Positions 12,126-44,076 of a DNA stretch of 64,000 nucleotides are shown here, one piece after another. The DNA is taken from positions 558,001 through 622,000 of the forward strand of contig NZ_CP030053.1 of the NCBI RefSeq assembly GCF_004114955.1, written 5' to 3'. Within the stretch, counting starts at the first letter, position 1, and each line of letters begins with the position of its first letter. Source of the DNA: Bradyrhizobium guangzhouense. Its GTDB lineage: Bacteria; Pseudomonadota; Alphaproteobacteria; Rhizobiales; Xanthobacteraceae. A model generated the notes under the pieces. That model was not told where the DNA came from. It searched no databases and saw nothing but the letters and a program-made list of their open reading frames with translations. Both the position numbers and the translations under genes were made by a program.

Positions 12126-13337
12126 ATGAACTACGAAGATTATTTCCGCCGCCAACTGGATGGTCTCCGCCGCGAGGGCCGCTATCGCGTCTTTGCCGAC
12201 CTCGAGCGCAAGGCCGGCGCCTTTCCGCGGGCTGCGCATCACACGCCGTCTGGCGAACGTGAAGTCACGGTCTGGTGCTCGAACGACTATCTCGGCATGG
12301 GGCAGCATCCCAAGGTGCTCGCCGCGATGCACGAGGCGCTTGACCGCTGCGGCGCCGGCGCCGGCGGCACCCGCAACATCGCCGGTACCAATCACTATCA
12401 CGTGCTGCTCGAGGCGGAGCTCGCCGATCTCCATGGCAAGCAGGCCGCGTTGCTGTTCAATTCCGGCTACGTCTCGAACTGGACGACGCTCAGCACGCTG
12501 GCGTCGCGCATGCCGGGCTGCGTCATCCTGTCGGACGAGCTCAATCACGCGTCGATGATCGAGGGCATGAAGCACAGCCGCTGCGCTACGCGCGTGTTCC
12601 GGCACAACGACGTCGCCGACCTCAGGAGCAAGCTGTCCGATCTCGATCGCGACGCGCCCAAGCTGATCGCTTTCGAAGCGGTCTATTCGATGGACGGCGA
12701 CATCGCGCCGATCGCCGACATCTGCGACGTCGCCGATGAGCATGGCGCGCTGACCTATCTCGACGAGGTGCATGCCACGGGATTGTACGGGCCGCGCGGC
12801 GGCGGCATCTCGGATCGAGAGGGACTCAGCGATCGCTTGACCGTCATCGAAGGAACGCTCGCCAAGGCGTTCGGCGTGATCGGTGGTTACATCACCGGCT
12901 CGCATACTGTATGCGACTTCGTGCGCAGCTTTGCGTCGGGCTTTATCTTCTCAAGCGCATTGCCGCCGGCGGTCGCGGCGGGCGCCTTGACCAGCATCCG
13001 GCATTTGAAGGCCAGCTCGCACGAGCGCGAACGGCACCAGGACCGCGTGGCGACGCTGCGGCGCAAGCTCGATCAGGCTGGCGTGCAGCATCTCGACAAC
13101 CCCAGCCACATCGTGCCCGTGATGGTGCGCGACCCCGTGCTCTGCAAGGAAATCAGCGACACATTGCTCGATCGCTACGGCATTTATGTGCAGCCGATCA
13201 ACTATCCGACCGTCGCCCGCGGGACCGAGCGCTTGCGCATCACGCCGTCGCCGCTGCATTCGGATGCGGATATCGATGCGCTGGTCACGGCCTTGTCGGA
13301 GATCTGGGCCGAGGTCGGGCTGGCGAGGGCGGCCTGA
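12126..13337 (+). CDS. hemA: 5-aminolevulinate synthase
   Basis: HemA condenses glycine and succinyl-CoA to 5-aminolevulinate, the first tetrapyrrole step in alphaproteobacteria. The 403-residue protein is the usual length and has the PLP-enzyme signatures: [10 protein letters not shown] near residue 53, [13 protein letters not shown] near 76, [12 protein letters not shown] near 211, and the lysine that binds PLP in EGTLAKAFG (Lys247). A clear AGAGGGGA ribosome site precedes ATG 12126. A hemA copy inside the photosynthesis operon lets precursor supply rise together with the bacteriochlorophyll genes; a second housekeeping copy elsewhere is common in such bacteria. Confidence 0.97.
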
Positions 13338-13346
13338 ACGTCGGCC

Positions 13347-14231
13347 ATGACCTATCACGACATCAAGGCGACCGTCTTGCAGCGTGCACAGGCGCGACGC
13401 TGGTTCGAGCGGCTTCGCGACGACATCTGCAGCGCCGTGGAGGCGTTGGAACGGGACGCGCCAGCCGCGCTATTCCCGGGCGAGCCCGCGCGCTTCGTAC
13501 GCAAGCCGTGGCAACGTGCGACTGGCGAAGGCGGCGGCACGGGCGGCTTCCTGATCGATGGCCGGCTGTTCGAGAAGGCAGCCGTTCACACCTCGTCCGC
13601 AAATGGCACGCTGACGCCCGAATTGGCACGTTCGCTGCCGGGAGACGGCAAGCAGCTCGATTATCTCTCCGCGAGCATCAGCCTGATCATCCATCCCCGA
13701 AGCCCGCGCGTGCCAACCGTGCACATGAACACGCGGTATCTGGCGACGTCGCAAGGCTGGTTCGGCGGCGGCGCCGACCTGACGCCAATGCTGCCGGACC
13801 AGCGCTCGCAAGCTGCCGAGGACGCTATGGCGTTTCATGACGCCATGCGTCAGGCCTGCGACGTCCATGATCCTGACTACTATCCCCGCTTCAAAAGCTG
13901 GGCCGATGAATACTTCTTCTTGCCGCATCGCGGCCAGACCCGTGGCGTCGGCGGGATCTTCTTCGACCATCTCAACACCGGTGACTTCGCAAGGGACCTC
14001 ACCTTTGTCCGCGATGTCGGCCTCGCCTTTCTCGATATCTATCCGGCAATCGTCCGGAGGCGCATGGTCGAACCGTGGAGCGAAGAGGATCGGCGGCAAC
14101 AGCTGGCTTGCCGCGGTATCTACGCTGAATTCAACCTGCTGTACGACCGCGGTACGACGTTCGGGCTTCGGACGGGGGGAAACGTCGAAACCATCCTTAG
14201 CTCCATGCCGCCCGCAGTGAGCTGGCCCTGA
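13347..14231 (+). CDS. hemF: Oxygen-dependent coproporphyrinogen III oxidase
   Basis: HemF decarboxylates coproporphyrinogen III to protoporphyrinogen IX using O2. The 294-residue protein carries the family signatures FVRKPWQRATGEGGGTGGFLI, PTVHMNTRYL, WFGGGADLTPM, and the C-terminal YAEFNLLYDRGTTFGLRTGGN. It begins nine bases after hemA, so it is likely cotranscribed. With AcsF it makes the tetrapyrrole route in this operon aerobic at two steps. Confidence 0.95.
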   Translation: MTYHDIKATVLQRAQARRWFERLRDDICSAVEALERDAPAALFPGEPARFVRKPWQRATGEGGGTGGFLIDGRLFEKAAVHTSSANGTLTPELARSLPGDGKQLDYLSASISLIIHPRSPRVPTVHMNTRYLATSQGWFGGGADLTPMLPDQRSQAAEDAMAFHDAMRQACDVHDPDYYPRFKSWADEYFFLPHRGQTRGVGGIFFDHLNTGDFARDLTFVRDVGLAFLDIYPAIVRRRMVEPWSEEDRRQQLACRGIYAEFNLLYDRGTTFGLRTGGNVETILSSMPPAVSWP

Positions 14232-15389: not shown

Positions 15390-15590
15390 CTACTTCAGCT
15401 TGAGGTCGCGCAAAGCGGTTATAATCGAGCGATATTCATCAATGGCTGACTTTGCGAGCGCATGGAGCTCGTTGTGAACTAGGCTACTCACTGCCTGCTC
15501 TATCGTTAGAAGATCGACCTCTAATCTTTGCAGTGCAGCCGTCAGTTCGCTAAACGAAGGCTGATGGCTGGCTCCCGTCTCGTCGGCCAT
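15390..15590 (-). CDS. 66-residue helical protein with candidate ECF sigma promoter
   Basis: A 66-residue, charged, probably all-helical protein (leucines spaced as in a coiled coil around LTAALQRLEVDLLTIEQAV). It has no cysteines or membrane segment. A GAGGAG ribosome site lies seven bases before ATG 15590. Upstream is a TGATCC-N16-CGTT element matching the one before the ECF sigma operon 25 kb away, which suggests a stress-induced small protein. Function unknown. Confidence 0.7.
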   Translation of the reverse strand: MADETGASHQPSFSELTAALQRLEVDLLTIEQAVSSLVHNELHALAKSAIDEYRSIITALRDLKLK

Positions 15591-15610: not shown

Positions 15611-15640
15611 CTTAAACGCCCGAAAGAGCCCCTCGGATCA
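15611..15640 (-). promoter_or_regulatory. Candidate ECF sigma promoter of the 66-residue gene
   Basis: Reading the minus strand, TGATCC (15640-15635) is followed by 16 bases and CGTTTAAG (15618-15611); the start codon is at 15590. The same -35/-10 arrangement precedes the rpoE-chrR operon and other units listed here. Confidence 0.65.
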
Positions 15641-15668: not shown

Positions 15669-15696
15669 TGATCCAAAATCATGGCGGCATCGTTGT
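15669..15696 (+). promoter_or_regulatory. Candidate ECF sigma promoter of the DUF427 gene
   Basis: TGATCC at 15669-15674, 16 bases, then CGTTGT at 15691-15696; the DUF427 start codon is at 15730. It faces away from the matching minus-strand element at 15640-15611, giving a divergent pair with 28 bases between the two TGATCC boxes. Confidence 0.65.
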
Positions 15697-15729: not shown

Positions 15730-16191
15730 ATGGAATCCGTATGGGATTATCCTCGTCCTCCTCGACTAGAGCCGGTCTCTCAACAGCTCGAAGTCATCTT
15801 CAATGGGAAGACTGTTGCGAGGACCACGCACGGTTATCGAGTTTTGGAGACGAGCCACCCTCCAGTATATTATTTCCCGCCCGCCGATGTCGACCTGACA
15901 ACTCTGGCGAGCGCGGAAGGACGGTCCTGGTGTGAGTTCAAGGGTCTTGCTTTGTACTGGGCCGTCGAAGTCGATGGCAAAACTGCCGATAAGGCGGCCT
16001 GGTGCTATCCTAACCCGACCGAGCCGTACTCAGCCATCTCCGGCTTCTATGCGTTTTACGCTTCGAGGGTGGACCAGTGCAAGGTCGGCGGCGAGCTAGT
16101 AAGGGCGCAGCCGGGTGATTTCTACGGCGGTTGGATCACGTCTGACATCGTAGGTCCCTTCAAGGGCATACCCGGTAGTAGACACTGGTGA
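15730..16191 (+). CDS. DUF427 domain protein
   Basis: A 153-residue protein of the DUF427 family: one domain with RVLETSHPPVYYFPPADVD near residues 37-55 and WCEFKGLALYWAVEVDGK near 66-83, ending with SDIVGPFKG. Members are small cytoplasmic beta-rich proteins; I know of no established biochemical role. ATG 15730 has GGAG eight bases upstream. The candidate ECF promoter upstream links it to the sigma/ChrR pair at 39-40 kb. No membrane segment or signal peptide. Confidence 0.85.
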   Translation: MESVWDYPRPPRLEPVSQQLEVIFNGKTVARTTHGYRVLETSHPPVYYFPPADVDLTTLASAEGRSWCEFKGLALYWAVEVDGKTADKAAWCYPNPTEPYSAISGFYAFYASRVDQCKVGGELVRAQPGDFYGGWITSDIVGPFKGIPGSRHW

Positions 16192-35803: not shown

Positions 35804-36017
35804 CGAATCAGCTTAATAGCTGCCCCGCCATTCCACCTCGTCGGCTGTTCCGTTCGATATTGAACTAGGCTCATCCGTCCAAGGCGGGTGGCTCGGCTCG
35901 ATACTCTCGCTTCAGAGCAGCGTATCGGCAGAGTGAATACGGCATTATCGACCAGCGCGTTGCTCTCGAATGCGACTCGCAGTCAACCAAACGTTCTAAG
36001 AGGTGAACGAGCTACCC

Positions 36018-36437
36018 ATGCTGTTTCGGTTGGTCTACCACAGTCGCGACTTGCTACGTCGGAAGGCCGTAGCCGCTGGAAGCGGGCTGATGAGCATTGC
36101 GAAGGCCGCAGAACAAAACAATCTTCAATTAGGGATATCCGGCGCCCTTCTGTTCGACAAGGACACTTTTGCGCAAGTGCTCGAAGGAGACAGAACAAAG
36201 GTCACGCAACTTTTCATCAGGATATGCAGCGATAGCCGACATACCGACATTAGTATCGTCGAGGCAAAGTCGGTCACCGACCGCAGGTTCGCCGATTGGG
36301 CTATGGCGCTTATTGCGAATCCTGCTGCGTCGCCTGTCGGACCGAACTACATTTCCGGCGAGGCGGTGGTCGAGATGATGGTCGAGCAGCTTCAGAATTC
36401 GGATGCTTCGCTGAGGGTTGCTGTTCCTGTCTGGTGA
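36018..36437 (+). CDS. BLUF blue-light photoreceptor (PapB-like)
   Basis: A 139-residue BLUF protein, an FAD-binding blue-light sensor. The residues of the photocycle are visible: Tyr7 (LVYHSR), Asn35 (EQNNLQLGISG), Gln53 (FAQVLEGDR), and Trp94/Met96 (FADWAMAL), with the family block ICSDSRHTDI between. About 40 residues after the domain would form the C-terminal helices that usually contact a partner. The start is ATG 36018; a GTG at 36003 is the alternative, as ribosome sites are weak for both. The separate EAL gene 214 bases upstream is the probable partner. Confidence 0.9.
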   Translation: MLFRLVYHSRDLLRRKAVAAGSGLMSIAKAAEQNNLQLGISGALLFDKDTFAQVLEGDRTKVTQLFIRICSDSRHTDISIVEAKSVTDRRFADWAMALIANPAASPVGPNYISGEAVVEMMVEQLQNSDASLRVAVPVW

Positions 36438-36615: not shown

Positions 36616-37233
36616 CTAGGGCTTCAGATCGGCCGACACCATTGCCAGAAATTCTTGGCGCAGGATCGGATCATCCTTGAAGCAGCCGATCATATTGCTA
36701 GTCGATAGATCCACGCCGTGCTTTTGTACGCCGCGTCCGCTGATGCAGTGATGCTCGGCTTTCACGAACACAGCCACGCCTTTCGGCTCGAGTTCGGATT
36801 GGATCGCATTCGCGATCTCGGTCGTAAACCTCTCTTGTATCTGCAGGCGCCTCGAATACCCGTCCACCACCCGCGCGAGTTTGGAAATGCCTACGACGCG
36901 CTGCGCCGGTACGTATCCTACCCATGCGCGCCCGACAATCGGTGCCATATGATGCTCGCAATGGCTACGGAAAGGAATGTTTCTGAGCAAAACCATATCG
37001 TCGTAACCACCAGTCTCGGCGAATGTCGTTCGAAGATGCTCGGTCGGGTCTTCGAAATAGCCGCGGAAATAGGTCCGATACGCTTCGACGACCCGCCGTG
37101 GCGTGTCCACGAGTCCTTCTCTTTCGGGATCTTCCCCGATCCAGCGTAGAATCACCCTGAATGCCTCCTCGGCATCTTCCCTGGACATGACCTTTCCAGC
37201 CGTGGACGGCGAAACTTTTGAAAAATCTTGCAA
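36616..37233 (-). CDS. folE: GTP cyclohydrolase I
   Basis: FolE converts GTP to 7,8-dihydroneopterin triphosphate, the first step to tetrahydrofolate and biopterins. The 205-residue protein has the zinc and catalytic motifs SHCEHHMAPI, ARVVDGYSRRLQIQERFT and EHHCISGRGVQK. It starts with TTG 37233, supported by AGAGG seven bases upstream. A TGATCC-N15-CGTT element stands before it, so this copy appears to be under the ECF sigma factor encoded nearby. A second housekeeping folE may exist elsewhere in the genome. Confidence 0.95.
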   Translation of the reverse strand: MQDFSKVSPSTAGKVMSREDAEEAFRVILRWIGEDPEREGLVDTPRRVVEAYRTYFRGYFEDPTEHLRTTFAETGGYDDMVLLRNIPFRSHCEHHMAPIVGRAWVGYVPAQRVVGISKLARVVDGYSRRLQIQERFTTEIANAIQSELEPKGVAVFVKAEHHCISGRGVQKHGVDLSTSNMIGCFKDDPILRQEFLAMVSADLKP

Positions 37234-37253: not shown

Positions 37254-37280
37254 GAAACGTGCGTACGTCGCTGTGGATCA
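37254..37280 (-). promoter_or_regulatory. Candidate ECF sigma promoter of folE
   Basis: On the minus strand TGATCC (37280-37275), 15 bases, then CGTTTC (37259-37254), 20 bases before the TTG start. The spacer shares CGACG with the rpoE and fasciclin elements. The spacer is one base shorter than in the other five. Confidence 0.6.
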
Positions 37281-37300
37281 CAGTCTGGAAAATGCGTGAA

Positions 37301-38833
37301 CTAAGGCGGTTCTAATGCCAGCGCGTCGGCGCGCCGTCTGATCGCCCGGATTTCATCCGGATCCTTCCTATCCAGGTTCGTATATTGATTTCGCATGCGG
37401 CCGTTTGAAGCAAACCGCTGGCGGTGCTTCGCAAGAAAACTCCAGTAGAGGGTGGTGAAGGGACAGGCGTCCTCTCCGATCGATTTCTTTGGATCGAAAC
37501 GGCAACCTTTGCAGTGATTGCTCATCCGATTGATGTAGGCGCCGGACGCCGCGTACGGCTTGGTTGCAATGACGCCGCCGTCACCATATTGGCTCATACC
37601 GAGCGTGTTCGGTAGCGACACCCAGTCGATCGCGTCCCAGAACATCGACATGTGCCAACGGTGGACCTCGTAGGGAGCTACACCGATCAGCATTGCGAAT
37701 AGCCCTAGTACCATAAGCCTCTCGATGTGGTGGGCGTATGCATGATCGATGGTGTGCGTGATGGCGTCGGCGAGGCACCGCATGTCGGTCTCAGCGGTCC
37801 AGTAAAAGCGTGGCATCCGAAGGTGCGCGTCCAGCGCGTTTTCTTCGGCATAATGCGGCATGCGCTGCCAGTAGATGCCCCGGACGTATTCTCTCCATCC
37901 GAGGATCTGACGGACGAAACCTTCCAAGGCATTCAGGGGGACCTCTTCGCTCCTCAGTGCGGCTTTGATCACCTCAGTGGGCGAAAGGATATGGAGGTTG
38001 AGGGGACCCGACAGTCGGGAATGATAGAGGAAGGGTTCTCCGTTCTGCATGGCATCCTGGTAGGTGCCGAACAATGGCAACCGTCGGGATACGAAATCCT
38101 CCAGGTGTTCGAGCGCTTGGGCGCGAGACACGGGAAGATCGATATTTTCCAGCCTTCCCGGACTGCTGGCGAAACGTCGTGAAACAAGATCACGCACCTC
38201 CGCGCTGATCGGGTCCATTTTCGAAGCGCGTTTCGGAGGAATAGTTGGCGCGTCTTTCCCCAGCGGCTTCCTGTTCTGTTGGTCGTAGTTCCATGCCGAG
38301 CCGACGGGCTTTCCGGCTTTGTCCATGAGAAGCCCGGTTTTTTTCCTCATGAAGCGGTAGAACGTTTCCAAAATGTGTCGTGGGTGGTCGCGTGTGAACG
38401 CCGCGAACTCGTCTCGTGAGCAGAAGAAATGCCGATCGCTCCTGATCTCGGGCGGTTGCGGGAGGCGTCTCAATTTTTCGGCAACCCGCCAGTCTCCGGG
38501 CTCGATCGCAATTGTTCGTTCCGGCATGAGCAGTCTTTGCGCTCGGGCGATTTCGGTCTCGAAGCTACCTGTATTTTCAGGATGGTCGATGGCCACGTAG
38601 TGCACGCGCCGGCCTCGCGCGGTCATATCCTGCCGAAAGTGGCGCATCGAACCGAAGAAGTAGGCGATGCGAAGCTTGTGTTGAGTGATGTAAGCCGCTT
38701 CCTCCAGCACCTCCATTTGGAGGATGACGTCGACTTCAGGGTCGAAGCCGTCGAACGCAGCTGAGTTTCCGTCCAGTTGGTCACCCAAGACCAGGACCAG
38801 ATTTCTTGTCTTCAGCTGCGTGGGCTCCGGCAT
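37301..38833 (-). CDS. phrB: Iron-sulfur bacterial cryptochrome/photolyase, (6-4) type
   Basis: A 510-residue protein of the FeS-BCP branch of photolyases (PhrB of Agrobacterium, CryB of Rhodobacter), which repair (6-4) UV photoproducts or act as light regulators. It begins with the Rossmann strand LVLVLGDQLD. The four [4Fe-4S] ligands are present at Cys353, Cys441, Cys444 (CKGC) and Cys457 (DACPF), with the same spacing as Cys350/438/441/454 that I recall for PhrB. The region HHIERLMVLGLFAMLIGV is conserved in the group. ATG 38833 has AGGA eight bases upstream. It follows chrR by 69 bases in the sigma operon. Confidence 0.93.
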   Translation of the reverse strand: MPEPTQLKTRNLVLVLGDQLDGNSAAFDGFDPEVDVILQMEVLEEAAYITQHKLRIAYFFGSMRHFRQDMTARGRRVHYVAIDHPENTGSFETEIARAQRLLMPERTIAIEPGDWRVAEKLRRLPQPPEIRSDRHFFCSRDEFAAFTRDHPRHILETFYRFMRKKTGLLMDKAGKPVGSAWNYDQQNRKPLGKDAPTIPPKRASKMDPISAEVRDLVSRRFASSPGRLENIDLPVSRAQALEHLEDFVSRRLPLFGTYQDAMQNGEPFLYHSRLSGPLNLHILSPTEVIKAALRSEEVPLNALEGFVRQILGWREYVRGIYWQRMPHYAEENALDAHLRMPRFYWTAETDMRCLADAITHTIDHAYAHHIERLMVLGLFAMLIGVAPYEVHRWHMSMFWDAIDWVSLPNTLGMSQYGDGGVIATKPYAASGAYINRMSNHCKGCRFDPKKSIGEDACPFTTLYWSFLAKHRQRFASNGRMRNQYTNLDRKDPDEIRAIRRRADALALEPP

Positions 38834-38902
38834 CCGGATATCCTGAACTTTCGTGCCTACACGACCTCCAGGGCGCCCCCTGAACGATGACGCTCGAGCT
38901 CG

Positions 38903-39547
38903 TCAGAGCCTGATGAATGGAGAAACAAGGCGACCGATCCATCCGTTGCCCTTCAAGCTGCCGGACATCGCCACGAAGCATAGACAGGGCTCCTCGGTGC
39001 CCACGATAGGCTGATGGTTCACGTCATCATCGCCGTAATCGAAGTCGCCCGGGCCGTAATGGCCGCCCTCATGCGCGAAGCTGCCCTTCAGAACGCAGGT
39101 CAATTCTGTTCCCGAATGCGTGTGACCTAACATCTTGGCACCAGGAGCAGACCACAGCAGGAATGCCCGCGATTGGTCGGAACTAGGCAAAATGAGTGAT
39201 TGCATGCTCACTCCAGGCGCCACCCGACGCTTCTTGCCGAAGCGGCAGTTGCGGAGGACATCCGGAAGATCCGAGGCGGCTGGCGGCATCGATTCCGTCG
39301 TGCCAGACATTGAGATGGGCTTAGCGTCGACTTTATCAAGAACAACCGAAAGCGCGTCGGCTCGCAGGAAGACAGGAGCTGCTTGTTCGATGGCCGAGCC
39401 TCCGAGCCGCTCCAGGGCTCCAACCAATCGACGACAGCTTCGGCATTGCGCGACGTGAACCGCCAGGGCGAGCCGATCAGCCTCTTCAAGTGGGCCAGAG
39501 ACAAAGCCAGCCAGAAGATGTTCCGGAGGATGATGCTTGATGGTCAT
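38903..39547 (-). CDS. chrR: ChrR-type zinc anti-sigma factor with cupin domain
   Basis: ChrR binds the ECF sigma factor RpoE and releases it under singlet oxygen in Rhodobacter sphaeroides. The 214-residue protein has the N-terminal zinc anti-sigma domain with His31, Cys35 and Cys38 (HVAQCRSC) and an early His (KHHPPEH). The C-terminal cupin contains His142, His144, Glu148 (GHTHSGTELT) and His178 (DVNHQP). Its ATG overlaps the sigma stop codon, so production is coupled. Both zinc sites look intact, so singlet-oxygen sensing like that of ChrR is expected. Confidence 0.92.
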   Translation of the reverse strand: MTIKHHPPEHLLAGFVSGPLEEADRLALAVHVAQCRSCRRLVGALERLGGSAIEQAAPVFLRADALSVVLDKVDAKPISMSGTTESMPPAASDLPDVLRNCRFGKKRRVAPGVSMQSLILPSSDQSRAFLLWSAPGAKMLGHTHSGTELTCVLKGSFAHEGGHYGPGDFDYGDDDVNHQPIVGTEEPCLCFVAMSGSLKGNGWIGRLVSPFIRL

Positions 39548-40089
39548 TTTTGTTCGTCCAGTAGCTCTCTCAATCTTTTCATGGCGAGGCGAATGCGCGA
39601 TTTGACCGTTCCCAATGGAATGCCCAACGAAGAGGCGATTTCGCCGTGCGGTCTCTCCTCAATAAACGAGAGCCGGACCACCGTGGATTGCTCCTCCGAC
39701 AGGCGGGCCAACGCTTTTGCGATGCGCGTAACATCTTCACTCTGGGCCCGTATCGCTTCCGGGGAGGCTACGGTCTCGACCTCGTAGGCTGTTTCCGGCG
39801 ATTGCAACGCCCGATCATGGCGTAGAGCCCGCCGGGCGATATCAATGCGCTGATTGCGCGCGATCGTGAAGATCCAAGCTGCTACACCGGCAGTGGTCGG
39901 ATCGAACTGTCCCGCCTTGCGCCAGACAGCAACGAAGGTGGATTGCGCTATATCTTCAGCGGTTTCCGGGTCGCTTCCCGTCTTTATGAGAAAGCCCTTC
40001 ACGCGCGGAGCGAAATGCTCGAATAGCCGTGCAAAGGCGTCACGATCTCCATGGCTTGCGACACGCGAAATCAAATCAATCCAGTCCAC
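39544..40089 (-). CDS. rpoE: ECF sigma factor, RpoE type partnered with ChrR
   Basis: A 181-residue group IV sigma factor. Region 2 is seen in ETAEDIAQSTFVAVWRKAGQFD and AAWIFTIARNQRIDIARR, and region 4 in LSFIEERPHGEIASSLGIPLGTVKSR with a C-terminal helix. The start is taken as GTG 40089 (VDWIDLISRV), which has GAAGG five bases upstream and gives the normal ECF length; the frame is open to 40257, but that extension has no sigma homology and contains the promoter. Pairing with ChrR, plus the TGATCC elements, places it with sigma factors answering photo-oxidative stress. Confidence 0.93.
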   Translation of the reverse strand: MDWIDLISRVASHGDRDAFARLFEHFAPRVKGFLIKTGSDPETAEDIAQSTFVAVWRKAGQFDPTTAGVAAWIFTIARNQRIDIARRALRHDRALQSPETAYEVETVASPEAIRAQSEDVTRIAKALARLSEEQSTVVRLSFIEERPHGEIASSLGIPLGTVKSRIRLAMKRLRELLDEQK

Positions 40090-40225
40090 CGTTGCCTTCA
40101 GCCTTTCACCTTTGAGGCGATGCCTTATACCTGGGCTAGAGCATGCCCCGAAAGGTTCTTTTGGTTGAAGCCTTGCAGCCCGAGAGATCACGGTGGATAT
40201 GCCTCTTGGCGACGGGACATCAAAA

Positions 40226-40253
40226 GAAACGACCTGACCGTCAGTTTGGATCA
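40226..40253 (-). promoter_or_regulatory. Candidate autoregulated promoter of rpoE-chrR-phrB
   Basis: On the minus strand TGATCC (40253-40248), 16 bases, then CGTTTC (40231-40226). The rpoE GTG lies 137 bases downstream, leaving an untranslated leader of about 130 bases. ECF sigma factors of this type usually drive their own operon. Confidence 0.65.
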
Positions 40254-40324
40254 CCACGAACTAGCGGATTGGTTTGGAATGCGATCGTTAGTTCACACAG
40301 CTGCCGCGATCGTCCTGGTTGAGC

Positions 40325-40738
40325 TCACACCAAAAACTGTCGAGCTGCGAGATACCCGCAATAAGCGCTACCTGCGCCCAACAACCCGCCCCACGCGATA
40401 TCGACGATTGACAGAGTCGTCGTCCAGTTGCGAAGGACCGCCTGATTTGTGAGGTCATAGGTCGCATAGGTGAAAAAGCCAAAAAGCAAACCAAGCCACG
40501 CAGCCCTACCGCTGGAAGCAGCGGCGTGTGCTGGTAAAACGGCAAGCGCGATGAGCCCGAGCGGGTACAGAAGGTAGAAGACGAGAGCCGGCCAAAAGTT
40601 CGGCTCGCTCCGCGCTATGTCGCCTATCGTCGCGAGATAGAAGCGCTGGCCCATGAGCTTGAGCCAGACCGCATCGACCGCAACGAATGGAATAGCTACG
40701 GCCAGATAGAGCGCAACGTAGGACATGCGAACCCGCAC
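40325..40738 (-). CDS. DUF2177 membrane protein
   Basis: A 137-residue membrane protein of the DUF2177 family with four hydrophobic segments (about 7-25, 47-68, 78-98 and 108-130) and the typical FFTYATYDLTNQAVLRNW between the third and fourth. The start is ATG 40738 or ATG 40726. A TGATCC-N16-CGTT element lies 13 bases upstream of the longer start, so I place it in the ECF regulon. Biochemical role unknown; an envelope or lipid role under oxidative stress is only inference. Confidence 0.87.
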   Translation of the reverse strand: MRVRMSYVALYLAVAIPFVAVDAVWLKLMGQRFYLATIGDIARSEPNFWPALVFYLLYPLGLIALAVLPAHAAASSGRAAWLGLLFGFFTYATYDLTNQAVLRNWTTTLSIVDIAWGGLLGAGSAYCGYLAARQFLV

Positions 40739-40753
40739 AGTTTGATCGGTGTA

Positions 40754-40781
40754 AGAACGTCGGAAGCTTTCGTCCGGATCA
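40754..40781 (-). promoter_or_regulatory. Candidate ECF sigma promoter of the DUF2177 gene
   Basis: On the minus strand TGATCC (40781-40776), 16 bases, then CGTTCT (40759-40754). It lies back to back with the plus-strand element at 40795; the two TGATCC boxes are 13 bases apart. Confidence 0.62.
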
Positions 40782-40794
40782 CAGGATCGCGCGG

Positions 40795-40822
40795 TGATCC
40801 AAAGCGACGTGCACGTCGTTCC
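40795..40822 (+). promoter_or_regulatory. Candidate ECF sigma promoter of the fasciclin gene
   Basis: TGATCC (40795-40800), 16 bases, then CGTTCC (40817-40822), 33 bases before ATG 40856. The spacer begins AAAGCGACG; the rpoE spacer begins AAACTGACG, so similarity extends beyond the two boxes. Confidence 0.66.
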
Positions 40823-40855: not shown

Positions 40856-41401
40856 ATGAACTTCAAGCGCATCGCGACTTCGCTCGCCGTGTCGGCCGTG
40901 ATGGTCAACTTCATCCCGCTTGCCATCGCCAAGGAGAAGACCGTGATGGTCGGCGGCGCTGCCATGTATCCGACGAAGAACATCGTCGAGAACGCCGTCA
41001 AGTCAAAGGACCACACCACCTTGGTCGCTGCCGTCAAGGCAGCCAGCCTAGTCGATACGCTGCAGGGACCTGGACCATATACCGTTTTCGCGCCGACCAA
41101 TGCTGCGTTCGGCAAGCTTCCAAAGGGAACCGTCGCGACCCTGGTCAAGCCGGAAAACAAGCAGACGCTGACCAAGATCCTGACGTACCACGTCGTGCCG
41201 GGACGCCTGACTGCTGACCAATTGATGGACGGTCAGAAGTTGATCACCGTGGAAGGCGAGACGCTGACAGTCAAAAAATCAGGCGGAAAGGTAATGATCG
41301 TAGACGCGAAAGGTGGCGCTGCGACCGTGACAATTGCCGATGTGCTACAGTCGAATGGCGTCATCCACGTCGTCAACCAGGTGCTGATGCCTTCGAGCTA
41401 G
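40856..41401 (+). CDS. Secreted fasciclin-domain protein
   Basis: A 181-residue protein with a Sec signal peptide (about residues 1-25, ATSLAVSAVMVNFIPLAIA) and one fasciclin (FAS1) domain with GPYTVFAPTNAAFGKLP, LTKILTYHVVPGRLTADQL, and the C-terminal SNGVIHVVNQVLMP. FAS1 domains mediate surface or protein contacts. GGAGG precedes ATG 40856. Relatives are found in regulons of oxidative-stress sigma factors in several alphaproteobacteria, as I recall, which fits the promoter element here. Confidence 0.92.
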   Translation: MNFKRIATSLAVSAVMVNFIPLAIAKEKTVMVGGAAMYPTKNIVENAVKSKDHTTLVAAVKAASLVDTLQGPGPYTVFAPTNAAFGKLPKGTVATLVKPENKQTLTKILTYHVVPGRLTADQLMDGQKLITVEGETLTVKKSGGKVMIVDAKGGAATVTIADVLQSNGVIHVVNQVLMPSS

Positions 41402-41505: not shown

Positions 41506-42384
41506 TTATTTCTTTCGGCGACCCGTCAATTCCGAGACGAGAGGATTAGGATAGCGGCGCTGCTGGCTGATGGCATAGAATTGCTCCGCTAGTTCGTTTA
41601 ACCGCGCCCGCTCGACGAGCAGGCCCGAACGAAGCTCGTCAATCACGACGATCGAGGGGACGAGAGCAAGATGGCCGCTTTCGCGGGCCATCAGGCGCAG
41701 CATCGCCATGTCGTCGACCTCCGCGGCAATTATCGGTCTGATGCCTCGGCGGCCGACCAGCGCATCGAAGGCCGAGCGAAGTGCGTTGCCCCGGCCCGGT
41801 AGGACTAGCGGAAGATGTGCGAGATCCTGCGGAAACCTAAGCCGGGCGGGATTCGGGGGCTTTCGGCCGACGATACTGACTCGCTGCTCGTCAATGAGCG
41901 TATTCTCGAAGCTGCTGCGTGCATCGGGCGGTGCCGGGTGGTTGGCGAGAACGACATCGAGCTTGTGCGCATCGAGTGACTCGAGCAGATCGTCGAAAAG
42001 TCCGGTGTGGATGATGAGCTCGACATCAATGCGGCTTATCAGTGGCCGCAGAAATGCGATCTGGAAGTTGCGCGACAAAGTCGCTGAAGCCCCGACCCGC
42101 AGCAACTGACGTCCGGGCCGCAGGCCCGACAACGTCTCGATCAATTCATGGCCTGATTTGAAAACGCTGCCGGCGTAGTCGAGCGCGATGCGACCCGCTT
42201 CGGTGAGTTGCAGAGAGCGTCCGACACGCTCGAATAGCTGTTGGCCCAGCTGCTCTTCCAGCGCCTTGAGCTGTACCGACAGCGACGACGGCGAAACATT
42301 GAGCCGCTGCGCCGCGCGGCTCATGCTTCCCTCGGTGGCGATTATCCAGAAATAGCGCAGATGGTGGTAGTTCAGGTGAGGCAT
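41506..42384 (-). CDS. LysR-family regulator beside the dab genes
   Basis: A 292-residue LysR-type regulator: N-terminal winged helix-turn-helix (about 5-65) with HLRYFWIIATEGSMSRAAQRLNVSPSSLS and LEEQLGQQLFERVGRSLQLTEAG, then a ligand-binding domain. The opening LNYHHLRYFWIIA is like NhaR-type members. It is transcribed away from dabB across a 105-base gap that contains a T-N11-A palindrome, so it very probably controls the carbon-uptake operon and perhaps itself. The effector may be a metabolite signalling carbon status; this is not visible in the sequence. Confidence 0.92.
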   Translation of the reverse strand: MPHLNYHHLRYFWIIATEGSMSRAAQRLNVSPSSLSVQLKALEEQLGQQLFERVGRSLQLTEAGRIALDYAGSVFKSGHELIETLSGLRPGRQLLRVGASATLSRNFQIAFLRPLISRIDVELIIHTGLFDDLLESLDAHKLDVVLANHPAPPDARSSFENTLIDEQRVSIVGRKPPNPARLRFPQDLAHLPLVLPGRGNALRSAFDALVGRRGIRPIIAAEVDDMAMLRLMARESGHLALVPSIVVIDELRSGLLVERARLNELAEQFYAISQQRRYPNPLVSELTGRRKK

Positions 42385-42394
42385 GCAATCATTC

Positions 42395-42440
42395 TATTTG
42401 AGATAACGATTGCGTTCAATAATTGAATTTTTCTCAAATA
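42395..42440. promoter_or_regulatory. Candidate LysR operator between the regulator and dabB
   Basis: Two nested dyads in the divergent gap: TATTTGAGA (42395-42403) against TCTCAAATA (42432-42440), and inside them TTCAAT-A-ATTGAA (42415-42427), which matches the T-N11-A form of LysR sites. Centres differ by about three bases. Confidence 0.6.
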
Positions 42441-42489
42441 AGCAGATGCGCTAGTTACTCGGCCACTGGACCAAACCAGCCGAGGTGCC

Positions 42490-44076
42490 ATGATCAAGCT
42501 CCTACCTTGCATTGCCTTGCTTGCTCCGACGACGCTGTGTGCAGCAAGCATTCTCCCATTCCGTGGCAGCGCCCGTGATTTCGTCCGCGTTGCGATCTCG
42601 GCTGCCGCGGTTGCGCTCTTTTTCGCCATCGCCGCTGTCCTCGCGGTCGCAGTTTACGGGGCCGGCCGATCGCCGCTGCTCGGTGGTTACGGGCTTGGGC
42701 TTTCGATCCATGTCGATGCGCTCGCCGCGATCCTCTGCGTGCTGGTCGGCTTCATCGGCTTCGTCGTCGTCAAGTACAGCCGCAATTATCTCGATGGCGA
42801 TCCGGGCCAGGGCAGGTTCACGCGGTATCTGCTGCTGACGCTCGCCTCGGTTCTGACGCTCTTGATATCGGGCAATCTGCTGTTCCTGCTTGCGGGCTGG
42901 ATCGCGACCAGTCTCTCGCTAGGCAGGCTACTGCTGTTCTACCACACGCGGCCGGCAGCGATCCGCGCCCACCGCAAGAAGTTTGTTGCCAGCCGCCTCG
43001 GCGACGGCTGCCTCGCGGGAGCCATCGCGCTGCTCTACTTTCAGTTCGGTACGCTCGAGATCCCAGATCTTGCCGCCCGGGCGCGCAGCAGCGTGGATGT
43101 CGAGTCACCCGCAATCACCGCGGCGGCGCTGCTCATCGTCGTGACCGCCATGCTCAAATCCGCTCAGCTGCCGCTGCATGGCTGGCTGATCGAAGTGATG
43201 GAGACACCGACCCCGGTGTCGGCACTGCTGCATGCCGGTATCATCAATGCCGGTGGCTTCCTCGTCCTGCGGCTCAGCGATGTGCTGCTGCTGGCGACGC
43301 CGGCCCTCAACGTTCTGGCCGTCGTCGGCGGTATCACGGCGCTGTTCGGCTCGCTGGTGATGCTGACGCAGACGTCGGTCAAGGTCCAGTTGGCCTATTC
43401 AACCGTGGCCCAGATGGGTTTCATGCTGCTGCAATGTGGGCTGGGCGCCTTCTCCGCCGCGCTCCTGCACATCGTCGCCCATTCCCTCTACAAGGCACAC
43501 GCTTTCCTGTCATCGGGCAGCATCATCGACCTGGCACGCGCGTCGTGGACGCCCAGCCCCGGTGGCCAGCCGCACCCGGCGAGGCTGATCCTCGCGCTCG
43601 CAGGCGTGATCGGATTGACGATGCTGATCGGCTGGGGGCTCGGCATGACGTTACGCAGCAATCCGGCGCAGATCGCGCTGGGATCCGTGCTGCTGATGGG
43701 GCTCGTACACCTCATGGCCAATGCGATCGACGAGCGGCCCAACGCCTTCGTCGTCGCGCGCGGCATAGTCACCGCGGCCGGTGTCGCCGCGCTATACGTT
43801 GTACTGCAAGCTGCGGCGGCGTGGCTGGCCGCCAGCAGCGTCCCGGTCGGCCGTCCGGTCTACGGCACTGCGCCGATGCTGATCGCTGCGCTGGTGGTGA
43901 TCTCCTTTGCGGCGGTGACGGTGTTTCAGAACCAGATGATGCGCCGCGCCGACGCACCGTTCTGGATCGCAGCTTACGTGCATCTGCGCAACGGCTTCTA
44001 TCTGAACACGTTGGCGAACCGGCTGGTGCTGACGTTGTGGCCGCGCACGTCGCACAAACTCACGCCCAACCCCTGA
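42490..44076 (+). CDS. dabB: DabB: NuoL/MrpA-like proton-channel subunit of bicarbonate uptake
   Basis: DabB is the membrane subunit of the DAB (DABs accumulate bicarbonate) system, related to the proton-pumping subunits NuoL/MrpA. The 528-residue protein has about 13 membrane segments. It contains the NuoL-type blocks AAILCVLVGFIGFVVVKYSRNYL, MLKSAQLPLHGWLIEVMETPTPVSALLHAG with the conserved Lys and Glu, and TQTSVKVQLAYSTVAQMGFM (each quoted in part). GAGG lies five bases before ATG 42490. DabA follows after 13 bases. Confidence 0.9.
   Translation: MIKLLPCIALLAPTTLCAASILPFRGSARDFVRVAISAAAVALFFAIAAVLAVAVYGAGRSPLLGGYGLGLSIHVDALAAILCVLVGFIGFVVVKYSRNYLDGDPGQGRFTRYLLLTLASVLTLLISGNLLFLLAGWIATSLSLGRLLLFYHTRPAAIRAHRKKFVASRLGDGCLAGAIALLYFQFGTLEIPDLAARARSSVDVESPAITAAALLIVVTAMLKSAQLPLHGWLIEVMETPTPVSALLHAGIINAGGFLVLRLSDVLLLATPALNVLAVVGGITALFGSLVMLTQTSVKVQLAYSTVAQMGFMLLQCGLGAFSAALLHIVAHSLYKAHAFLSSGSIIDLARASWTPSPGGQPHPARLILALAGVIGLTMLIGWGLGMTLRSNPAQIALGSVLLMGLVHLMANAIDERPNAFVVARGIVTAAGVAALYVVLQAAAAWLAASSVPVGRPVYGTAPMLIAALVVISFAAVTVFQNQMMRRADAPFWIAAYVHLRNGFYLNTLANRLVLTLWPRTSHKLTPNP

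Follow-up and report, generated by a model that had tools for sequence, protein, structure and literature searches.

The closest described relative of the system treated here is the RpoE-ChrR pair of Rhodobacter sphaeroides, an extracytoplasmic function (ECF) sigma factor of group ECF11 and its anti-sigma factor, with their singlet-oxygen regulon. In the accessible parts of the literature, ECF11 promoters are given as TGATCC-N16-CGTA (PMC5507510, PMC4336711, PMC5036791). As far as the accessible reports go, CGTA is also found throughout at the sites of Pseudomonas syringae PSPTO_1043 and Shewanella RpoE2, unlike the CGTT described here, while the TGATCC -35 element, the 16-base spacer and photolyase genes are shared. 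Here we describe a 64 kb stretch of Bradyrhizobium guangzhouense (NZ_CP030053.1; in the following ‘the window’), where an RpoE-ChrR pair is accompanied by six matches to TGATCC-N15/16-CGTT (in the following ‘sites’). In our view it is quite likely that an ECF11 RpoE-ChrR pair is found in the window along with a small, clustered and autoregulated regulon, whose master -10 base has changed from A to T in step with a loop of the sigma factor. The type of regulon is already known; what is new is a natural change from CGTA to CGTT within ECF11. Literature searches returned no title on such a switch, which is weak evidence of absence, subscription papers lying mostly outside these searches.

Several features place the pair within ECF11. 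The sigma factor contains sigma regions 2 and 4, ChrR adjoins it, and TGATCC with a 16-base spacer precedes rpoE. The best PDB matches of the two proteins are the R. sphaeroides RpoE (2q1z) and ChrR (2z2s), which bears out the ChrR-partnered RpoE proposed in a preliminary description of this DNA. In ChrR, alignment to 2z2s showed that the ligand columns of the zinc anti-sigma domain (H6, H31, C35, C38) and of the cupin domain (H141, H143, E147, H177), as named in the accessible part of PMC6852236, are all kept. Autoregulation is likewise common to both systems. The differences lie in the -10 element, which is CGTA in R. sphaeroides and CGTT at all six sites of the window, and in the residue of loop L3, Arg there and Thr here. 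Because of this -10 element, we assign the window promoters to a variant class of ECF11. Thus, of the two promoter elements described earlier, TGATCC agrees with the -35 printed for RpoE-ChrR factors, and CGTT departs from the CGTA printed as -10 of the published group, in the accessible sources.

The sites themselves are all present and clearly clustered, as had been described. Sequence shuffles gave 0.40 expected sites (largest shuffle, 2), and the whole genome (8.14 Mb, two contigs) contains 63 matches or 0.50 per 64 kb, so that six or more in one window have a Poisson probability of 1.3e-5. Five sites have spacer 16 and the folE site has spacer 15. The positions given before are real, only their 3' ends were 2-4 bases too long. 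All sites face a gene at distances of 17-138 bases, and their intergenic location could also be upheld: the five spacer-16 sites are intergenic according to a crude gene caller based on codon usage (88% coding over 12 random stretches), and the folE site lies between two open reading frames (ORFs). This caller misses some genes, since the next gene was called for only 2/5 of these spacer-16 sites. The extended consensus reads G-TGATCC-R-N15-CGTT, with the DUF427 site having C in place of the first G.

To what extent the last base follows the sigma factor can be seen in relatives. The promoter before rpoE was read in 80 named loci and 12 from the genus, giving CGTA in 52 and CGTT in 28; the holders of CGTT were Bradyrhizobium copies, three assemblies labelled Acetobacteraceae and one unclassified alphaproteobacterium. 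In this training set, 80 of the 92 loci had an A or T label, 79 of these were without inner stop and 78 sigma factors were distinct (promoter threshold slightly laxer than in later sets). Among these 78, position 67 in loop L3 (numbered from the residue ahead of the GTG start) was the sole alignment column separating the classes without overlap. A residue-base prediction, with Cys listed on the CGTT side, was then fixed before later loci were read. In the class sample, all 87 usable loci were CGTA (42/129 dropped, promoter weak or none). It tests one side only, as it holds no Ser/Thr sigma factor with a usable promoter. The family sample (53/66 usable; 12 weak and one CGTG dropped) gave CGTT in 10 loci (five Thr, three Ser, two Arg) and CGTA in 43, two of them with Ser. 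Further Bradyrhizobium, close kin of the training set, gave CGTT in 12/12 new usable loci (eight Thr, four Ser; of 16, three were duplicates and one had no promoter) and were left out of the pooled set. In this pooled set of 217 distinct sigma factors, Thr, Ser or Ile at position 67 went with CGTT in 35/37 cases and other residues, mostly Arg, Lys or Gln, with CGTA in 178/180. The full tally is 21 Thr, 13 Ser, one Ile and two Arg for CGTT, and 79 Arg, 58 Lys, 34 Gln, two His, two Leu, two Ser and one each of Met, Cys and Tyr for CGTA. Counting only material after the training set, with identical proteins removed and near kin kept, 20/22 Ser/Thr sigma factors were CGTT and 127/129 others CGTA.

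Column 67 also had the highest mutual information of seven columns tested on the 217 sigma factors. In a model of correlated evolution, dependence beat independence with a likelihood ratio of 43.4 (4 degrees of freedom), the top of the same seven columns, followed by position 72 with 33.7; the residue groups were drawn from the same data and the L3 columns omitted from the tree.

The other target promoters have switched with the sigma factor. For this, 81 loci were compared (29 CGTT-class, 52 CGTA-class; the window's own share being 20 kb), with a chrR homolog found by tblastn anywhere in the locus in 29/29 and 52/52, respectively. The last base of TGATCC-N16-CGTN was T in 87, G in 6, A in 4 and C in 0 cases in the CGTT-class (control spacer, 7.9), and A in 78, C in 9, G in 4 and T in 3 in the CGTA-class (control spacer, 9.7). 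In front of sigma, DUF2177, TspO-type and fasciclin genes and that of a flavin adenine dinucleotide (FAD) enzyme, amine-oxidase-like and named by eye, 135/138 sites matched their class. The strongest control for a switch of the whole regulon comes from the same genus. In the case of G006, whose sigma factor has Arg67, the only nearby sites are two CGTA sites. In the case of G035, the first sigma factor (Ser67) has three CGTT sites and the second (Lys67) only CGTA sites nearby, three in number; this assembly, with its apparent coexistence of both types, is 80% complete and 4% contaminated.

Regarding the mechanism, loop L3 of ECF sigma factors accommodates the flipped master -10 base, which changes when L3 is swapped, according to the accessible parts of PMC8103513, PMC6372665 and PMC6411747. 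Such reading is described for Escherichia coli SigE, for Mycobacterium tuberculosis SigH and SigL and for swap experiments. In SigH, the flipped T forms bonds with T76 and N77 (PMC6411747, in part). This T76 lies four residues past F72, just as T67 of the window lies four past F63. These known cases, as far as the sources are accessible, are structures, engineered swaps and between-group comparisons, whereas here a natural switch within one group is seen along with its target promoters. Of sigma factors outside ECF11, SigW reads CGTA and SigE CGTT. Given the L3 structures, T76 of SigH and the column residues of SigW and SigE, a chemistry in which Thr/Ser reads T and Arg/Lys/Gln reads A is plausible. 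ChrR would hold the sigma factor until a photo-oxidative signal, presumably singlet oxygen, leads to loss of ChrR. The free sigma factor would then direct RNA polymerase to TGATCC-N16-CGTT, with transcription starting at these promoters, and switch on rpoE-chrR-photolyase, the DUF2177, fasciclin and DUF427 genes and probably folE. The master base, the last of CGTN, would be flipped into the L3 pocket and be T here, where known ECF11 factors have A. Thr/Ser instead of Arg/Lys/Gln at residue 67 appears as the main correlate and may itself read the base, perhaps aided by Gly69 and Ala72, with the target promoters having changed along with the sigma factor.

Several observations weigh against this. 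On the tree, the base changes only 8 times, few of these on well-supported branches, which limits the covariation argument, and a sign test on independent pairs had no power (2 pairs). Exceptions exist: two related loci (L329/L336) have Arg67 yet CGTT before the sigma gene, L305/L307 have Ser67 with CGTA, and L241 combines Cys67 with CGTA, a miss of the earlier prediction. In two CGTT-class genomes, both Ser67, CGTA precedes folE, and in three CGTT-class genomes, one of them Thr67 (L079), an MHYT-GGDEF-EAL gene has CGTA 25 bases ahead of it. In addition, the folE site of the window has spacer 15, and genome-wide the spacer-16 matches (28) are barely above the control spacers (22 each) and below spacer 15 (35).

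The few changes, 8 for the base and 5 for the residue class, also leave room for shared ancestry only, with a few lineages having inherited both the loop and CGTT promoters and residues other than 67 setting the preference. Gly69 in 37/37 and Ala72 in 36/37 CGTT sigma factors and the Arg67 of L329/L336 speak for such an explanation, which we nevertheless regard as rather unlikely. Both residues also occur in CGTA sigma factors (55/180 and 17/180), column 67 scored above the other six columns tested in the tree-aware model, and a single clade for all CGTT sigma factors of the first set was marginally rejected (p-AU 0.045). Outside ECF11, SigW (5wuq) has Arg and a SigE chain (9m9d) Thr at column 67. 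A different sigma factor could also use the sites, the obvious one being the general stress factor EcfG, whose promoters have CGTT as -10 in the accessible part of PMC8103513. We consider this highly improbable: all six sites carry TGATCC, unlike the AAC-type -35 given for EcfG in what is accessible, the sites concentrate at rpoE-chrR copies, and the -10 base tracks the loop of the local RpoE, with CGTA beside Arg/Lys67 sigma factors in the same genus. Moreover, in the 30 best-matching of 58 genomes, the site of a second folE gene (see below) is broken in 16/19 Bradyrhizobium that lack ECF11.

That the sites arose by chance in GC-rich DNA is harder still to reconcile with the window and can practically be dismissed for its sites as a group. 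Most of the 63 matches in the genome do look like chance (35 at spacer 15 and 28 at spacer 16 vs 44 for two control spacers). A whole-genome scan, of the kind proposed in the preliminary description, found no large excess, and a regulon defined by genome-wide exact match was rejected as main evidence, the excess being too small. Against chance stand the clustering in the window and the conservation of sites across genera, together with the gene in distant relatives for rpoE, DUF2177, fasciclin and DUF427. A count of genic against intergenic hits was also proposed before: all 9/9 spacer-16 sites of two RpoE-ChrR clusters are intergenic vs 7/19 elsewhere, the remaining 12/19 falling within predicted genes. 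Site density was 3.13 per Mb in 12 Bradyrhizobium genomes with CGTT-type ECF11 vs 2.58 in 48 others, the latter including G006 with its CGTA-type sigma factor (one-sided P = 0.004), a difference too slight for delimiting a regulon. The site of the 66-amino-acid ORF and the exact folE site may still be of chance origin.

Going back to the switch of base and loop, Ser67 looks permissive, because L366 (Ser67) has two CGTA sites and one CGTT site, L365 (Ser67, Thr72) has three CGTA sites, and the two genomes with CGTA before folE are Ser67. We regard the chances as evenly balanced that ECF11 sigma factors switched from A to T more than once, Thr/Ser taking the place of a basic or amide residue in L3 and the whole regulon following, that two insulated RpoE-ChrR pairs for different bases coexist in at least one Bradyrhizobium, and that Ser67 is a bispecific intermediate. 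The case bears on the open question of how a sigma factor can acquire a new specificity, given that every promoter it uses has to follow. It is natural, small and testable (a single residue, a single base and a few promoters), with possible intermediates in Ser67 sigma factors and mixed promoters and one assembly with both versions. It also offers a rule, with known exceptions, for predicting ECF11 target promoters once the sequence of the sigma factor is known, and matched pairs that are candidate parts for orthogonal gene circuits.

Table 1. Positions of genes and promoters in the window, and of CGTA exceptions in related loci.
Feature	Position	Strand	Remarks
rpoE-like ECF11 sigma factor	39544..40089	-	GTG start; sigma regions 2 and 4; Pfam PF04542/PF08281; PDB 2q1z_A E=2e-43
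L3-loop residue codon	39892..39894	-	Thr, alignment position 67 (FDPT-T-AGVAAW); covaries with last -10 base
chrR anti-sigma factor	38903..39547	-	zinc-binding N-terminus and cupin domain; PF12973; PDB 2z2s_B E=2e-32
photolyase-related gene (DPRP family)	37301..38833	-	PF04244; 69 bases after chrR
folE, GTP cyclohydrolase I	36616..37233	-	TTG start (ATG possible at 37188); PF01227
DUF2177 membrane protein	40325..40738	-	PF09945
fasciclin-domain protein	40856..41401	+	PF02469
DUF427 protein	15730..16191	+	PF04248
66-amino-acid ORF	15393..15590	-	no Pfam family
promoter before 66-amino-acid ORF	15615-15640	-	TGATCC-N16-CGTT; 24 bases to start codon; divergent from DUF427 promoter
DUF427 promoter	15669-15694	+	TGATCC-N16-CGTT; 35 bases to start codon
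putative folE promoter	37256-37280	-	TGATCC-N15-CGTT, atypical spacing; 22 bases to start codon
autoregulatory rpoE-chrR promoter	40228-40253	-	TGATCC-N16-CGTT; 138 bases to start codon
DUF2177 gene promoter	40756-40781	-	TGATCC-N16-CGTT; 17 bases to start codon
fasciclin gene promoter	40795-40820	+	TGATCC-N16-CGTT; 35 bases to start codon; divergent from DUF2177 promoter
CGTA sites before MHYT-GGDEF-EAL gene	L036:8531-8556, L077:9017-9042, L079:9490-9515		conserved exception

The regulon members (Table 1) differ in their support, and the earlier claim of six target promoters holds for some of them. The sites before rpoE, DUF2177 and fasciclin are class-matched in relatives. A strong promoter preceded the sigma gene in 87/129, 27/29 (one CGTG) and 27/37 loci, and the rpoE site was found before nearly all Bradyrhizobium copies seen; exceptions are L085 and L087, copies with Arg/Lys67 that lack it and have the site before an upstream folE. 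The DUF2177 sites were CGTT in 12 cases in the CGTT-class, and in the CGTA-class five were CGTA and one CGTT. Fasciclin sites matched their class, two being from the CGTT-class and one from the CGTA-class. In its accessible part, Table 1 of PMC7074977 lists fasciclin (RSP_1409), the GTP cyclohydrolase folE2 and photolyase as R. sphaeroides regulon members, and DUF2177 and DUF427 are not named there; fasciclin is also cited for Azospirillum (PMC10949492, in part). Comparison with the core set of R. sphaeroides, which comprises photolyase, genes for cyclopropane fatty acids and the operon RSP_1087-1091, gave the photolyase-related gene after chrR and FAD-enzyme targets in relatives. The gene order is sigma, ChrR, photolyase-related gene and folE. 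Because of their spacing, chrR and the photolyase-related gene probably form one operon.

In the case of DUF427, the gene was found by DNA match in 21/242 genomes of the genus, with an exact spacer-16 CGTT site 35-84 bases upstream in 7/21, own genome included, and no such site in 14/21. The purine rule after TGATCC is broken by 5/7 of these sites. An ECF11 sigma factor is carried by 20/21 genomes with the gene, and in a sample of 60 genomes by 5/6 with it vs 8/54 without (P = 0.001). The site before the 66-amino-acid ORF, a region that may be a coding small RNA, was seen among 21 loci only in the own genome and in one 95%-identical relative (G036).

The spacing of the folE site is off-consensus. 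As among spacers 15, 16 and 17 only 16 is enriched across the 81 loci, it is the weak one, the earlier ‘15 or 16’ being corrected in this respect. folE, which is of the PF01227 type whereas R. sphaeroides lists folE2, nonetheless probably belongs to the regulon, four lines beside the window site supporting membership. A CGTT site with spacer 16 precedes a second folE (C1 2.866 Mb, L042:2350-3042) by 109 bases. Accepting CGTT or CGTA, this site is intact in 10/11 ECF11-bearing vs 3/19 ECF11-lacking Bradyrhizobium (P = 9e-5). This comparison covers the 30 best of 58 genomes with a match; in four of the 30, one ECF11-bearing, the match falls short of the upstream region. G002 and G009, which equal the ECF11 bearers in closeness to the query, have CGTG there. 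In G496, folE likewise follows a CGTT site with spacer 16, and in G006 and the second G035 copy a folE homolog lies directly before rpoE-chrR, with a CGTA site 107-171 bases upstream.

In a second RpoE-ChrR cluster of the same genome (C1 5.04 Mb), CGTT sites precede rpoE, a further ECF sigma gene, a TspO-type gene and a 110-amino-acid ORF, and the crude caller places all four of them in intergenic DNA. One CGTA site of this cluster precedes an MHYT-GGDEF-EAL gene. The extra ECF sigma gene stands behind its CGTT site between chrR and the photolyase-related gene (L036:8971-12864), possibly as part of a sigma cascade, and CGTT sites at a similar spacing were seen in many Bradyrhizobium copies. 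The window copy differs in that the photolyase-related gene directly follows chrR.

The organism is probably phototrophic, since a pair of genes for reaction-centre proteins (PF00124) is found 14 kb ahead of the window. Among 60 genomes, ECF11 was found in 4/5 phototrophs vs 9/55 others (P = 0.006); phototrophy was rejected as a rule for ECF11, being associated with it, not exclusive. One Bradyrhizobium genome (G033, 94% complete) contains reaction-centre and DUF427 genes, with no ECF11 sigma factor found. Near the regulon, a gene for a BLUF blue-light sensor (36003-36437) is without a TGATCC-N15/16-CGTT site, and a LysR regulator gene adjoins a gene that was named NuoL-like by eye (41506-44076). 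Lastly, hemA-like and hemF-like genes, also named by eye, were seen near the DUF427 promoter pair (12126-14231).

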